Assembly (NCBI GenBank): GCA_019192445.1
Contig: JAHCMK010000002.1
Span: 248,001-312,000 of the forward strand
Direction: 5' to 3'
Origin: Oceanococcus sp. HetDA_MAG_MS8
Lineage (GTDB): Bacteria > Pseudomonadota > Gammaproteobacteria > Nevskiales > Oceanococcaceae
Length of the DNA: 64,000 nucleotides
The notes below the pieces were generated by a model. The model had not been told where the DNA came from. It saw nothing but the letters and a program-made list of their open reading frames with translations, and did not search any database. Below are positions 10,255-17,579 of the stretch, piece after piece (positions within the stretch are counted from its first letter, which is position 1; every line of letters begins with the position of its first letter). Made by a program: the position numbers and the translations under genes.

Positions 10255-11601
10255 TTAGTCACTACGGCGTTTAAAGCTTTTAGGCTCCAGATCATACTTC
10301 TTGAAGAGCTTGTACAGATCTGTGCGGTTGCGTCCGGCCAAGCGCGCCGCCTGACTGACGTTACCTTGAGTAATCTCTAGAACCTGGCGCAAGTAATCAC
10401 GCGTGCATGCATCCCTTGCGGCATCCAAGGTACTGACACCGCCGCTGCTGGCTACGGGGCTACCCAAGGCCTTTTCGACTTGGCCCACGCTGATGACCGA
10501 GTCCGCTGCTAAGGCGACGTTTTGCTCAACGACATTGAACAACTGGCGAATATTTCCAGGCCACTGCGCGGCCACCAGTGTGCTCATGGCCTCGGGTGCA
10601 TACACGCGCTTTGGAGCACCGGCCTGCTGTAATTGCTGTAGCTTATGCTGGACTAGAGCCGGAATATCCTCGCGACGCTCTTCCAGGGCTGGAATACGCA
10701 AACGGACCACATTGAGGCGGTAGAACAAGTCCTCCCTGAACTCCCCCGCTGCGATCTTATCTTCCAAGTCTCTGTGCGTGGCCGACAACACGCGCACGTC
10801 AACTGCGACCGTGCGTGACTCTCCCACAGGGCGCACCTGGCGCTCTTCCAAGACTCGGAGCAGCTTCACCTGCAGCTCCGCTGGCATATCACCAATCTCG
10901 TCGAGCAGGATGGTGCCGCCCTCGGCAGCCCGGAACAGTCCCAAATGATCACTTGTTGCTCCGGTGAAGGCCCCCTTCTTATGACCAAAGAGCTCACTTT
11001 CCAATAATTCGGCCGGCATTGCCCCACAGTTCATAGCAACGAAAGGACGCTTTGCTCGGGGGCTCTGCGCATGAATGTAGCGGGCGAGTACCTCTTTGCC
11101 TGCTCCGCTAGGGCCGTTAATCAACACTGTGCAATCACTGCTGGCAATCTGCTTGGCATCGCGCAGAAGCTCCAGCATGCGGGGGTTGCGGCTAAGCCCC
11201 TCACCCTCGTCATCCCCCTCAGCCTGCGTAGCAACCGCATCGGGCATCGGCATGTATCGCTGCAGAGCCTCTTCCAGCTGTTCCCGCGATATAGGTTTGG
11301 TCAAAAAGGCCACCGCCCCTTCTTGAGTGGCGCGAACAGCCTCAGCCACATCCCCATGTGCAGTCAGAATGATCACCGGTAGAGCCGGACGGGTAATTTG
11401 CAAGCGCTGCAACAGCTGCAAACCATCCATTCCAGGCATTCTTAAGTCGCTCAACACCAAATCCGGCTGAGCGGTATCCAAATTCTGCAATGCGGCTTCT
11501 GCACTCTCTACATCGCTCACATCAAAGCCCAGAGCGGTAAGCCGCATGCTCAGTACACGCCGCAGTTTTTGGTCATCATCAACAAGAAGAATTCTTGCCA
11601 T
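10255..11601 (-). CDS. glrR: sigma-54-dependent response regulator GlrR (QseF)
   Basis: A 448-residue enhancer-binding protein. It has a receiver domain with phospho-acceptor Asp52 (LVLSDLRMPGMDG) and a TAHGD switch region, then an AAA+ domain with NGPSGAGKE (Walker A), the sigma-54 contact loop GAFTGA, and GTILLDEIGDMP (Walker B). A Fis-type helix-turn-helix ends the protein (NVSQAARLAGRNRTDLYKLFKKY). The receiver and output resemble E. coli GlrR/QseF. It would activate sigma-54 promoters after phosphorylation by GlrK, whose gene lies 20 bp upstream. Candidate operators are the TGTC-N10-GACA sites at 13190 and 13128 in front of the divergent BON-domain gene. Confidence 0.93.
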   Translation of the reverse strand: MARILLVDDDQKLRRVLSMRLTALGFDVSDVESAEAALQNLDTAQPDLVLSDLRMPGMDGLQLLQRLQITRPALPVIILTAHGDVAEAVRATQEGAVAFLTKPISREQLEEALQRYMPMPDAVATQAEGDDEGEGLSRNPRMLELLRDAKQIASSDCTVLINGPSGAGKEVLARYIHAQSPRAKRPFVAMNCGAMPAELLESELFGHKKGAFTGATSDHLGLFRAAEGGTILLDEIGDMPAELQVKLLRVLEERQVRPVGESRTVAVDVRVLSATHRDLEDKIAAGEFREDLFYRLNVVRLRIPALEERREDIPALVQHKLQQLQQAGAPKRVYAPEAMSTLVAAQWPGNIRQLFNVVEQNVALAADSVISVGQVEKALGSPVASSGGVSTLDAARDACTRDYLRQVLEITQGNVSQAARLAGRNRTDLYKLFKKYDLEPKSFKRRSD

Positions 11602-11621: not shown

Positions 11622-13118
11622 TCAGTTGGGGACAGACGAAGGGGGAGTGTCAGCCTCGCTGGACTTTGGGTCATCGGCCATTTTTGGGGCGGGCCATTGA
11701 CAGACAAACCGGGCCCCAGGGTGGGCATCTTCTACATGCACGCCGCCCCCTAGTTCGTTACAAATTTCCGCCACAATGGCCAGGCCTAAGCCAGAGCCGC
11801 GCAAAGTCGTCTCCTCAGGCTGGCTGCCTTGTTCAAATGGATGGAATATTCGTTCCTGCTGCTCTGCAGGCACGCCGGGACCACGATCGCGTACACGTAT
11901 TTCGCACACCCTGCCACGTTCGCGGTCCATGCAGCCCAAGGTGACATCCACCTGCGATTCAGCGGGGGCAAACTTCAGCGCATTGCTTAGGAGATTATCC
12001 AGCACTTCCAGAATTGCCAACCGGCGTCCGTATATAAAAGGAGTATCCAGATTCAGCTCAAAGGTCACGCTCTTGGCCTGACGCAGCATCGCCGTTGGTG
12101 CCAAAGCCTCTTCCAGCAGGGGCTGCAACTCGTGCCATTCAGGGCTGTCCTGGCGACGCTCCAGGCGCCACTCGGCATAGCTCAGCAAGCGCATAATCAT
12201 CTGCTCTTGGTCCTGGGTGGACTCCTTAAGAATGTCGACCACCTCAGCCTGCTGCGGATTCAAGGTACCAAGGCTCGCATCTGCGAGTAGCTCTGTACCT
12301 TCCTTCAGGCTTGCTAAGGGTGTTTTAAGCTCATGAGTCACATGACGCATGAACCGCTCTTTATCCGCTTCCAAATTGGCCAGACGACGACGCAACCACT
12401 CCAATTGCGCTCCCAATGTGCTGAGCTCTTCGGGGTAGCTGATTCGTATGGGTTGGTCGAATTGACTGCGTCCCAGTTGCAGTATTTGCTGCCGAGCTTG
12501 CCGCACCGGGCGGGCGATGATGCCGGCCAACCCGTAGCCCAGCGCGACGGTTAAGGGGATCAGCCCACCCACCGCGAACACGATCACCCATCGCGCTCGA
12601 CGTACGGCTGTGAACAAGACTTTCTCCTCAGCCAACAAGGCCTGCGTCCCAGCCTCAATCATGACCTCCGCCTTCTCCTGGGCCCCGGCAATCAGCGTCA
12701 GGGGCTCACTTAAGGCATAGCCCTCGCGAAGAAGCTCTTCCCAGCTTCCACGCGCGTCAATCAAGGCCTGGCGCACGCCCCTGATCTCATCCTGATAAGC
12801 GCGACTCATATCCATGGCCTGCATCGACTCCATGGCGTCGATAGCCGCATCCGCACGCTGGTAGAAGCGCTGCAGATCGCTGGCTTGACCACTGCGAATA
12901 TAGTCCTGCGCGAGGTCATCTAGATCATCAATTCGCTCCCTGAGCTGCTGACCTAATCGACTCACCAGAATACCGTCCTGGAGTAACCGATCTGCGTGCT
13001 GGCTGAGTGAGTTCAAGGTGTTCAACGCCAGAATCAATGCCACCGCCAGGGGTAGCGCCGCAGCGAAAAAGCCGGCTGCGATCAATCCAGAAATGGAGCG
13101 CGGCAAAAGTCTAGCCAT
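11622..13118 (-). CDS. glrK: sensor histidine kinase GlrK (QseE)
   Basis: A 498-residue inner-membrane kinase. TM1 is at about 11-32, followed by a helical periplasmic sensor (33-175) and TM2 at about 176-200. A HAMP segment follows, then the phospho-acceptor His262 in HVTHELKTPLASLKEG. The ATPase domain has DNLLSNALKFAP, DRGPGVP and GSGLGLAIV. The Ala/Pro-rich C-tail is typical of nothing in particular. It pairs with glrR (20 bp apart). In enterobacteria the kinase responds to envelope conditions and a QseG lipoprotein gene sits between kinase and regulator; here there is no qseG. The start is 226 bp from the divergent BON gene, and the shared gap carries the operators described separately. 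Confidence 0.92.
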   Translation of the reverse strand: MARLLPRSISGLIAAGFFAAALPLAVALILALNTLNSLSQHADRLLQDGILVSRLGQQLRERIDDLDDLAQDYIRSGQASDLQRFYQRADAAIDAMESMQAMDMSRAYQDEIRGVRQALIDARGSWEELLREGYALSEPLTLIAGAQEKAEVMIEAGTQALLAEEKVLFTAVRRARWVIVFAVGGLIPLTVALGYGLAGIIARPVRQARQQILQLGRSQFDQPIRISYPEELSTLGAQLEWLRRRLANLEADKERFMRHVTHELKTPLASLKEGTELLADASLGTLNPQQAEVVDILKESTQDQEQMIMRLLSYAEWRLERRQDSPEWHELQPLLEEALAPTAMLRQAKSVTFELNLDTPFIYGRRLAILEVLDNLLSNALKFAPAESQVDVTLGCMDRERGRVCEIRVRDRGPGVPAEQQERIFHPFEQGSQPEETTLRGSGLGLAIVAEICNELGGGVHVEDAHPGARFVCQWPAPKMADDPKSSEADTPPSSVPN

Positions 13119-13127
13119 GAAGTGACC

Positions 13128-13145
13128 TGTCTGCGTTTGGCTACA
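13128..13145. promoter_or_regulatory. second, imperfect GlrR-type operator
   Basis: TGTC-N10-TACA, one base from the TGTC-N10-GACA consensus and embedded in the longer inverted repeat ACCTGT-N12-ACAGGT (13125-13148). Its centre is 62 bp upstream of the perfect site, about -180 from the predicted sigma-54 start, and next to the glrK start codon. The symmetry supports a dimer site. Confidence 0.5.
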
Positions 13146-13189
13146 GGTTACAACGAAATGCCTGGATTAGCAGGGCGATACACGCAATT

Positions 13190-13207
13190 TGTCGGCAAAT
13201 GCAGACA
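13190..13207. promoter_or_regulatory. GlrR-type operator (upstream activating site)
   Basis: A perfect match to TGTC-N10-GACA, the consensus described for GlrR binding upstream of glmY in enterobacteria. It is centred about 118 bp before the predicted sigma-54 transcription start at about 13317, the usual distance for an enhancer-binding protein. It lies between glrK and the BON-domain gene. Confidence 0.7.
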
Positions 13208-13291
13208 TTTTCTACCTTAGGCCAAAGCTAAGCACCTCCACTTTCGCGCAGAACGCCCGTATTCCATTGTTTTATTTAACTTTTTTAGATT

Positions 13292-13306
13292 TGGCACAGG
13301 CATTGC
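13292..13306 (+). promoter_or_regulatory. sigma-54 promoter of the BON-domain gene
   Basis: TGGCAC-N5-TTGC at 13292-13306, with the GG (-24) and GC (-12) dinucleotides ten bases apart as required. The predicted start is near 13317, giving a 28-base leader before the ATG at 13345. It is preceded by an A/T-rich tract (13266-13291), which could help bending between activator and polymerase. Confidence 0.78.
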
Positions 13307-13344
13307 CCTAGACATCATGCCTTTCTTTCAATCGGGAGTAAGCC

Positions 13345-14028
13345 ATGACAATGACCCACGATGAACAATTGAAATTAGCCAGCTCGAACCGTCAAACCAC
13401 GACGCGTGAGTTGAGTCTGTTCGCCGGAACAACCTTGTTGATGAGCAGCTTAGCGCTACCGGCACTGGCGGCCGATAAAGACCACAACTCAAGCTCGTCG
13501 GTCGCTTCACAGGCGATGGAAGCCACGGGTGAGGCCTGGAACGACACCAAAATGGCTGCCAGCGACGCTTACATCAAAGGCCGACTGGTCACTGCTTACA
13601 CATTATCCGAACACCTCAACCCCTTCGACATTGACGTTAGCGTCAGCGATGGAGTGGTGCGCCTGACGGGGGCCGTGAGCGACGATATCGCTCGCGACTT
13701 AGCCACCGAAATCGCGCAAGGGATTGAGTCTGTTAAGGACGTTGATTCTCAGCTACGGCTGGATGAATCGCTGACCGAGGACGCTGCCGAGCAAGATGGT
13801 GACTCTTTCGCCGCATCATTCACCGATGCCACCATCTCCGCGCGGGTGAAAACCCAGTTGTTATGGAACAACAACATTGAGGGCCTTGGCATTGATGTAA
13901 GCACGCAAGAGCGCGTGGTCACCCTCAGCGGCGAGGTGGAGACCGATGCCCAAAGCGCCCTGGCCGAGCAAATCACTCGCAACACTGACGGGGTCGCTTC
14001 GGTCGTGAATGAACTCAACGCCTCTTAG
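13345..14028 (+). CDS. periplasmic BON-domain protein (OsmY-like)
   Basis: A 227-residue exported protein. GGGAG lies six bases before the ATG. An unusually long N-region (about 24 residues) precedes a hydrophobic SLFAGTTLLMSSLALPALAA signal ending near residue 43. Two BON domains follow, at about 74-141 (IKGRLVTAYTL ... VRLTGAV) and 162-227 (ISARVKTQLLW ... VVTLSGEV). BON proteins associate with membranes or lipids, and E. coli OsmY is a stress-induced periplasmic chaperone. Promoter context suggests sigma-54/GlrR control. The csbD gene follows 61 bp downstream, probably in the same transcript. Confidence 0.88.
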   Translation: MTMTHDEQLKLASSNRQTTTRELSLFAGTTLLMSSLALPALAADKDHNSSSSVASQAMEATGEAWNDTKMAASDAYIKGRLVTAYTLSEHLNPFDIDVSVSDGVVRLTGAVSDDIARDLATEIAQGIESVKDVDSQLRLDESLTEDAAEQDGDSFAASFTDATISARVKTQLLWNNNIEGLGIDVSTQERVVTLSGEVETDAQSALAEQITRNTDGVASVVNELNAS

Positions 14029-14089: not shown

Positions 14090-14305
14090 ATGAGTAACTC
14101 CGACAAACTCAAAGGTCAATGGAAACAGATCAAAGGTGACTTACGCGAACGTTGGGGCAAATTGACCAACGACGAAGTCGAACAGATCGATGGCCAAGAG
14201 CAAAACCTCGTTGGCAAGATTCAGGAAAAATATGGCATTGCCAAAGAAGAGGCTCAAAGCCAGGTCAACAACTTCTTATCCAAGTTGAATTCCACCGTGG
14301 AATAA
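14090..14305 (+). CDS. CsbD-family stress protein
   Basis: A 71-residue, highly charged helical protein with the CsbD pattern: KLKGQWKQIKGDLRERWGKL, then EQIDGQEQNLVGKIQEKYG. A strong site (AGGAG) precedes the ATG. CsbD-like proteins are small soluble general-stress proteins of unknown mechanism (E. coli YjbJ is the best-known relative). Its position after the BON-domain gene and before a strong terminator makes a two-gene stress unit likely. Confidence 0.92.
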   Translation: MSNSDKLKGQWKQIKGDLRERWGKLTNDEVEQIDGQEQNLVGKIQEKYGIAKEEAQSQVNNFLSKLNSTVE

Positions 14306-15377: not shown

Positions 15378-17579
15378 TCAGACCAACACCACAGCCTTGA
15401 CAGTCCTGCCGCGCCCTTGGCCAAGCAGCAGACACAGCATGAGCAGAAGAAGGCTCCACACTCCTATAGCGCCGCCGGCAACGGCTGGTGCAGCATTCCG
15501 CGCGGCAACACCGGTGGAGGCAGCCGCAACGACAAATCTGTGCTGTAAGCGATGTTGTGCTTGCGCATCCGTTTCTGAACTGATCAGCAAGGCCAGCTGC
15601 GTTTGCGACCGTGCTTGAGCCTGCGCCGGCACCTGCAAGTAAACGCTGAGCTCGCGTGACTGTCCTGGCTCCAGCGCAATGACCTTATGGGTCACATGCG
15701 TGCGCCAACCTTGCGGGTGCTGGGGCTGCAAACGCACAAGATCGGTACGGGTGCCTTGGTTGGTCACGCGATACCTTAGCTCCGCCACGCGGCCAGGACT
15801 GGCCGACGTCTGACCCAAGGCCTCCAGCTCCAACGCAGACCGATAGCCGCTGGCATCTTCGGCGGCTCGCACCCCCACTTCATAGGTACGTACGCCACGG
15901 TCGTCCACTGTGGTGTCTAACACATAGAAATGCAGACCATTCGCGGCATCGACATACTCGCTCACCACACCCGGGCCGGTCCCTGCATGAAATAAGGCGT
16001 CTGCAAGCTGGCGGGCGTCACCCGGGGAAATGGGCACGGGTTCTCCTTCGCCTGGCTGTGGCCAACGGGGTTTTTCTGGCACCTGAACCGGACGCAAAAA
16101 GTCGAAGATCAGTTGGTCCTGGTTCGGCGGCGGGGGAACACGGGTGTTGATATCTTCCGGGTGGGCATCAATGGCCCAAATAAATGGCGGAAGATCGACC
16201 ACATCCTTGTTCTTCGCAAGCAGCACGCCGTGGTCCGGGGTAAAAGAGTCAAAACCGATACGATCGATGACTTCAATGGTGTAGCTGGTGTAGCCACCTC
16301 CATCACAGTCGAATTGTGTGGCCGTGTCACACGCGGGTGAGCGGTCCAGCCCCATAGGAATATGCACACCGTGCAAACCAATGTCGTTGGTGACCGGCGC
16401 CAAGGGATACGCACGTGGGTAAATGGTGGCCACAACCGGGCCGCTCAGCGCCAAGATATCGCGGGGCACCACCAGCACCTCATTGGGTTTGATAAAGCCC
16501 AAGCGCATCTTGTTACGCAACATATGGTGCGAGCCCATGGTCGTCGCCAAAGTCGCAGGAATGCGCCAGCGTTCGTGCGTCCCGCCGGGGCCGTTGAAAG
16601 TGCCGCGTGACAGCATGGCCCAGGTACCGGTGTACGAGCGCCGTGGGGGGTCGCCGAAGGGGTTGTTGTAGTTGTCCAGCACACCAAAGATATGGCTGAG
16701 TTCGTGGGCGTAAACCGATTGGCCGCTGGCTTCGGCTTGGGTTGAGGTCACACCCGGAACAGCACTGCTCCAAATGGCCTCGCCTGCCGTGAAAGAGGTC
16801 CAGTCGATGTAACGTGTTTCCACCCAATTGGGCTTGTCGGCATCCGGATTGCCAAAGGTGTCGCTGACATCCTCTGGTGTGGGGAACATCATTTCCCCGA
16901 ATTCCTGCCATAAGCCCGATTCGTCATAACCAGCATGCAGGAAGAAGCGAAAGGCGTAGTCCTCGCCGCCATTGGCCACGATACCGGCGGTCACATCGAC
17001 GAGGCTGGCCTCCAGAAGTTCATTGGTGAAGTTTCGGCCGCAGGTGTCACCTGCTGGGCAGCGATCCAGACCGCCTCCTACATCGCCTAGGCCATATTCA
17101 TGCTCCTTGCCTTCCATGCGGTAGGGCCCAAAAGGAGTGGCATCTACGCCAATCAACCCGTAGGAGTCCTCCAACCAATACTCATTGACGGTATGGAAGT
17201 GGTTGAGCTCGCTGGGCTTCGTGATCAGGAACTCTGCATAGAACTTGCCCACCTCTTCGCGAGGAATCGAACCAATGCCAATGGGATTGTGCTCGCCGTT
17301 CACGCCGACATCGTCACTTCCCGGCGGCTGGGTAATGATGAAGTCGCGATCGGCAAAGTCGGCCACAACCAAGGCAGCTCGAAGCTTTTTCGGAGGCTGA
17401 TTTTCCGGCGCCGTCCAATCCACTTCTGGAATGGGGCGATAGTCTTCCCAAGTCATCCACTCGGGCAGCACCCAGCTCTGTGGGTCCACCGGTTCCGGAA
17501 AATCATCCAGACCGGACTGCGCCAAGGCGCTCCCCATAGCAAACACGCCCAGCACAAACAGCCGTCTTACAGCGACCAC
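15378..17579 (-). CDS. exported M6-like metalloprotease with C-terminal membrane anchor
   Basis: A 733-residue secreted protein starting at GTG 17579, with AGGAG six bases upstream. The signal peptide is at 1-21 (RRLFVLGVFAMGSALAQ). The zinc site HELSHIFGVLD gives HExxH at 292-296 with Asp302 as a probable third ligand, as in M6/immune-inhibitor-A peptidases. The region after about 590 looks like a beta-sandwich found in extracellular proteins (LRYRVTNQGTRTDLVRL). It ends in a short Gly/Ala segment, a hydrophobic span (GVWSLLLLMLCLLLG) and basic residues. That tripartite tail resembles a protein-sorting signal of the GlyGly-CTERM kind, although the Gly-Gly is imperfect. Confidence 0.8.
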   Translation of the reverse strand: MVAVRRLFVLGVFAMGSALAQSGLDDFPEPVDPQSWVLPEWMTWEDYRPIPEVDWTAPENQPPKKLRAALVVADFADRDFIITQPPGSDDVGVNGEHNPIGIGSIPREEVGKFYAEFLITKPSELNHFHTVNEYWLEDSYGLIGVDATPFGPYRMEGKEHEYGLGDVGGGLDRCPAGDTCGRNFTNELLEASLVDVTAGIVANGGEDYAFRFFLHAGYDESGLWQEFGEMMFPTPEDVSDTFGNPDADKPNWVETRYIDWTSFTAGEAIWSSAVPGVTSTQAEASGQSVYAHELSHIFGVLDNYNNPFGDPPRRSYTGTWAMLSRGTFNGPGGTHERWRIPATLATTMGSHHMLRNKMRLGFIKPNEVLVVPRDILALSGPVVATIYPRAYPLAPVTNDIGLHGVHIPMGLDRSPACDTATQFDCDGGGYTSYTIEVIDRIGFDSFTPDHGVLLAKNKDVVDLPPFIWAIDAHPEDINTRVPPPPNQDQLIFDFLRPVQVPEKPRWPQPGEGEPVPISPGDARQLADALFHAGTGPGVVSEYVDAANGLHFYVLDTTVDDRGVRTYEVGVRAAEDASGYRSALELEALGQTSASPGRVAELRYRVTNQGTRTDLVRLQPQHPQGWRTHVTHKVIALEPGQSRELSVYLQVPAQAQARSQTQLALLISSETDAQAQHRLQHRFVVAAASTGVAARNAAPAVAGGAIGVWSLLLLMLCLLLGQGRGRTVKAVVLV

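Follow-up and report, generated by a model that had tools for sequence, protein, structure and literature searches.

A predicted GlrR-sigma-54 promoter module beside glrK in Oceanococcus, with near-constant spacing and output genes that differ between lineages

Most work on the two-component system GlrKR (QseEF) comes from enterobacteria, in which it is understood in terms of the small RNA GlmY, rpoE and QseG. NtrC-type regulators act on sigma-54 promoters by looping from sites about 100 bp upstream; at E. coli glmY, the control of which uses IHF, paired sites are thought to help activation. The E. coli glmY promoter was found by experiment to depend on QseF/GlrR and on sigma-54, the QseF/GlrR consensus was given as TGTN12ACA, and the kinase QseE requires QseG (PMC6075780). 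The K-12 sequence of glmY contains three TGTC-N10-GACA sites, the proximal one 106 bp from the -24 element and the next one 63 bp farther up. For GlrR control of BON, CsbD, DUF1328 or alginate genes, no report was found in the open-licence PubMed Central literature.

The window analysed here, a stretch of 64,000 nucleotides from Oceanococcus sp. HetDA_MAG_MS8, contains glrR (10255-11601, minus strand), which encodes an NtrC-type response regulator with receiver, sigma-54 activation and Fis-type HTH domains (Pfam), and glrK (11622-13118, minus strand), which encodes a membrane sensor kinase with HAMP, HisKA and HATPase domains (Pfam). Divergent from glrK lies an OsmY-like BON gene (13345-14028, plus strand) whose product matches PF04972 twice and carries an apparent signal peptide, judged by eye; against the OsmY model it reaches 77 bits, under the cut-off of 174. 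A gene for a CsbD-like stress protein (14090-14305, plus strand; PF05532, 65 bits, cut-off 40) starts 62 bp 3' of the BON gene on the same strand. The genes agree with a preliminary description of the locus, which had named an OsmY-like protein and CsbD as the adjacent output. Near this unit, a minus-strand gene at 15378-17579 encodes a large protein that resembles M6-type metalloproteases, with a score of 91 bits that falls short of the 110.8-bit cut-off.

The top NCBIfam model for the glrR product was GlrR, with 545 bits and thus under the curated cut-off of 763. Its identity to E. coli GlrR was 52.8% over 447 columns, compared with about 40% for the other regulators of the comparison. In a tree that took in E. 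coli GlrR, NtrC, AtoC and ZraR together with six NtrC-type paralogues of the same Oceanococcus genome, the window protein and E. coli GlrR formed one clade with support 100/100. It is this tree, and not membership in the NCBIfam model, that identifies the window regulator as a GlrR orthologue. Aligned over 301 columns, the kinase and E. coli GlrK share 33.6% identity; the kinase also matched PDB chain 9m08_C, titled only 'histidine kinase', over nearly its full length.

The 226-bp gap between glrK and the BON gene (13119-13344), flanked by the two divergent genes, contains three candidate regulatory elements. The proximal GlrR-type site TGTCGGCAAATGCAGACA (13190-13207, no strand assigned) is a TGTC-N10-GACA site with perfect palindromic half-sites. 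The distal site TGTCTGCGTTTGGCTACA (13128-13145, no strand assigned), which lies 62 bp away and ends 9 bp before the glrK start codon, has one mismatch to TGTC-N10-GACA and none to TGTN12ACA. The sigma-54 promoter match TTGGCACAGGCATTGCC (13291-13307, plus strand) has its -24 GG at 13293-13294 and its -12 GC at 13305-13306, from which transcription is predicted to start at about 13318; A+T reaches 83% over the 30 bp 5' of this promoter. All three elements were thus found as preliminarily described, with one adjustment: the promoter had been placed about 118 bp downstream of the perfect site, a figure that spans both the site and the promoter in full, whereas the start-to-start distance from the site to the -24 element is 101 bp. 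IHF consensus matches with at most one mismatch were absent from the spacer in the window, and perfect ones were present in two of the promoters of other genomes described below (G061 algD and the G002 outer-membrane protein promoter). Another sigma-54-like match, at about 13103-13118 towards glrK, was discarded as it lies inside the coding start of that gene, and several pattern matches within genes were taken as chance.

Taken singly, each motif is common. The window holds 20 TGTC sites with at most one mismatch, compared with 20.2 expected, and 37 loose sigma-54 matches, compared with 56 expected; perfect TGTC-N10-GACA sites number 34 in the whole genome and 29 for a reversed control. Genome- or window-wide motif counts were set aside as uninformative. 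Among 20,000 dinucleotide shuffles of the 226-bp gap, a perfect site appeared in 18, two TGTN12ACA sites in 11 and, with both strands considered and no more than one mismatch allowed, a sigma-54 match in 338. All three elements together appeared in none of the 20,000, and their co-occurrence in this order inside the gap is therefore not due to chance.

A scan of related genomes found the operator-promoter arrangement conserved. For this comparison, glrK loci were collected by the kinase protein, blind to the motifs, from the four genomes of the family and from 35 of 85 genomes of the order, and 30 loci were read. At 12 of the loci read, a sigma-54 promoter points away from glrK and its TTGG lies 101-104 bp from a TGTC-type site; a second site, where one is near, is usually 62-69 bp farther up. 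In 200,000 simulations, no set of twelve distances drawn at random from 40 to 300 bp was confined to a 3-bp range, a result that serves as a guide only because the genomes are related and not independent. Modules that were found by pattern or by neighbourhood (G061 algD, G063, the outer-membrane protein genes of G002 and G003, and G040) have spacings of 101-103 bp; since the pattern search was preset to about 98-110 bp, those that came from it are not independent evidence on spacing. All four family genomes have one or more sites and a promoter before BON or CsbD; in G001, from the same genus, the -12 element is degenerate and there is no BON gene at this place. Roughly half of the glrK loci examined show no module, and these include nearly every locus of family f6. 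No GlrKR of this type lay near the BON homologues of Gilvimarinus, Thiohalocapsa and Halochromatium, and convincing sites were likewise missing there. A strict pattern search across the class found only 8 places in 7 of 370 genomes, compared with 4 matches for the reversed control, and this pattern is therefore too narrow for mapping the spread of the module.

The likeness to the glmY module of Enterobacteriaceae extends to the orthologous regulator, the half-sites, the adjacency to glrK, the distance between paired sites (62-69 bp, 63 bp in E. coli) and the distance from the proximal site to the -24 element (about 103 bp, 106 bp in E. coli). The module differs in that its output here is a protein-coding BON-CsbD unit divergent from glrK, in the lack of QseG and in having two sites instead of three. 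We judge it to be orthologous in kind to the enterobacterial glmY module. The proposal that GlrKR is wired to a divergent sigma-54 promoter for BON and CsbD has good support from orthology, from conservation within the family and from the glmY-like geometry.

The gene behind the glrK-adjacent promoter differs by lineage. It is BON followed by CsbD in the window, CsbD alone in G001 and BON in G002 and G003. In the sister family f4, alginate-type operons led by algD or by algA/algC stand directly divergent from glrKR (L138 4573-14701; L134 6115-15600). A mannose-1-phosphate guanylyltransferase/isomerase is the first gene in G050 and G045 (algA-type, by model or reading) and in G046, G013 and G026 (by reading; G026 without the fixed spacing), and an AlgD-type nucleotide-sugar dehydrogenase in G034 and G035. 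The G034 operon continues with GT2, PilZ-HlyD, Sel1 repeat, alginate export and MBOAT proteins, which is the order of an alginate operon, so that the operon behind the module reads algD-alg8-alg44-algK-algE-MBOAT; in G050, the guanylyltransferase is followed by a phosphomannomutase, a dehydrogenase and later PilZ and Sel1 proteins. G061 has two perfect sites and a promoter before its AlgD-type gene, though its glrK is on another contig; the AlgD-like gene of the Oceanococcus genome under study has no such sites. Elsewhere the output is a TackOD1-GGDEF protein (G053, L140 8602-10017; by resemblance also G054 and G063, L141 and L153), which hints at a link to c-di-GMP. The earlier expectation of a different local target was correct and understated, as the module also faces alginate operons and a GGDEF gene, and like promoters face DUF1328, csbD and outer-membrane protein genes. 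This distribution suggests that an old control unit has repeatedly been fitted with a new output gene. Two further observations concern less familiar genes: in G040, which has no GlrK match at E 1e-60, the module precedes a 498-aa ORF (L146 7341-8837, minus strand) with no Pfam or NCBIfam match, and in G265 and G156, from other families of the class, small secreted-looking proteins, seemingly of EF-hand type by eye, stand behind module-like promoters (L125, L126).

The alginate operons raise the question of whether the regulator of the sister family is really AlgB, with KinB as its kinase, in which case the alginate link would be known biology under another name. AlgB of P. aeruginosa is indeed an NtrC-type regulator, whose action on algD depends on RpoN (PMC4064291), and NtrC-type two-component control of alginate, as exerted by KinB/AlgB in Pseudomonas, is what we predict for f4; the target predicted in Oceanococcus is BON/CsbD and not alginate. 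The alginate-linked regulators are, however, 52-56% identical to E. coli GlrR and, in the tree with NtrC, AtoC, ZraR and the six paralogues, nest within the GlrR clade, and their loci have a lipoprotein gene at the position of QseG between kinase and regulator. We regard the AlgB identity as unlikely and favor GlrR as the regulator in both families.

Further promoters of this type occur in the family away from glrK. The second GlrR-type promoter of the Oceanococcus genome under study (G000:C3:208000-208500; L001 5038-5498), which combines a sigma-54 match with a pair of perfect sites at a distance of 63 bp, likely serves the DUF1328 gene downstream, which is followed by two small membrane-type genes. 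Sites and promoter also precede DUF1328 in G002, where a small gene and csbD follow, and in G003, whereas G001 has one weak site only; in total, DUF1328 genes with such sites were seen in three of the four family genomes, compared with none of 26 loci from other families of the order. The spacings of the DUF1328 promoters differ (169 and 134 bp). G001 has a second csbD with two sites and a perfect sigma-54 match, downstream of an apparent transporter gene that by eye resembles the neighbour of the DUF1328 promoter of the genome under study, and in G002 and G003 the module also stands before an outer-membrane beta-barrel gene. In the same genome as the window, an ABC-transporter operon is preceded by a perfect TGTC site and, 60 bp after it, a sigma-54 match (L008 3801-3894); this arrangement was excluded because it could belong to another activator. 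In E. coli, BON and DUF1328 genes are adjacent as osmY-ytjA, and proteins of both kinds are predicted targets here. E. coli osmY is an osmotic, RpoS-type gene; no link of it to GlrR was found in the open-licence PubMed Central literature. In Azotobacter vinelandii, the regulon of AlgU (sigma-22) places alginate, CsbD and a BON protein under one envelope regulator (PMC10651043), and the pairing therefore has a precedent under another regulator, an ECF sigma factor there as opposed to the GlrR and sigma-54 predicted here.

With at least six further NtrC-type regulators in the genome, the sites and the promoter might be real and yet serve another activator of this type, the proximity of glrKR being incidental. 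The half-sites and the spacing match those of E. coli glmY, a GlrR-activated promoter, and at least 12 genomes retain the module next to glrK despite differing downstream genes, which makes another activator quite improbable compared with GlrR.

The position of the distal site points to an additional role. In each of the four family genomes, 9-10 bp separate its end from the glrK start codon, although it lies anywhere from 62 to 119 bp from the proximal site; because of this fixed position, it is probably tied to glrK itself. The distal site is thus probably not only an enhancer for BON, and we infer autoregulation of glrKR. That the sites serve mainly this autoregulation, with BON-CsbD transcribed from an ordinary stress promoter, e.g. 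of the RpoS type like that of E. coli osmY, is suggested by the same constant position and is nevertheless very doubtful, as the proximal site holds its distance to the -24 element and not to glrK, the sigma-54 promoter points to BON, and trans copies at algD, DUF1328 and csbD lie far from glrK.

The genus also differs at the kinase-regulator junction. The interval between glrK and glrR is about 20-24 bp in the genome under study and -22 bp in G001, the other genome of this genus, compared with 330-520 bp at all loci examined in other genera, nine of which were seen to carry a short ORF with a lipobox in this interval. For one of these QseG-position lipoproteins, the YfhG/QseG model gave a weak match of 18.9 bits (cut-off 27); such proteins (e.g. 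L149 10272-10919, L134 3680-4327) have no Pfam family of their own. E. coli QseG used as a query gave no match in the window, and the QseG-position lipoprotein of G002 gave none in the genome under study and only matches with E>=0.19 in G001. The preliminary remark that qseG is missing therefore stands, and among the loci examined the lipoprotein appears absent only from this genus, where it would have been lost.

Taken together, we consider it very probable that the gap is a GlrR-sigma-54 module that drives BON-CsbD with near-constant spacing and whose output gene has been exchanged between lineages. Phosphorylated GlrR would bind the proximal site as an enhancer and, through a looped spacer of about 100 bp, open the sigma-54 promoter at 13291-13307, so that BON-CsbD would be transcribed. 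The distal site would assist, in the way presumed for the paired sites at E. coli glmY, and, just before the glrK start codon, would probably also feed back on glrKR. Orthology, sites, spacing, conservation and the nature of the downstream genes are read directly from the sequences, and GlrR binding, sigma-54 dependence, activation and autoregulation are predicted from them. An envelope-stress reading of GlrKR is supported, with an envelope-stress signal as the presumed input, though the wider result is a single rigid module with exchanged outputs.

What is new are the outputs and their apparent exchange behind one rigid module; the kind of system is already known. Beyond the locus, we lean with some reserve towards the view that GlrKR is an old gammaproteobacterial envelope regulator with a portable module that was kept by glrK while its outputs were replaced (glmY sRNA, BON/CsbD, alginate operons, a GGDEF gene), so that glmY would be just one output, and that its kinase is QseG-free in this genus. 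The locus would then offer a clean case of constant promoter architecture with exchanged outputs, and a natural QseG-free kinase would provide a system for asking what QseG does. If true, the placement of alginate and small envelope-stress proteins under GlrKR would make defence of the cell envelope and capsule the ancestral role of this system.
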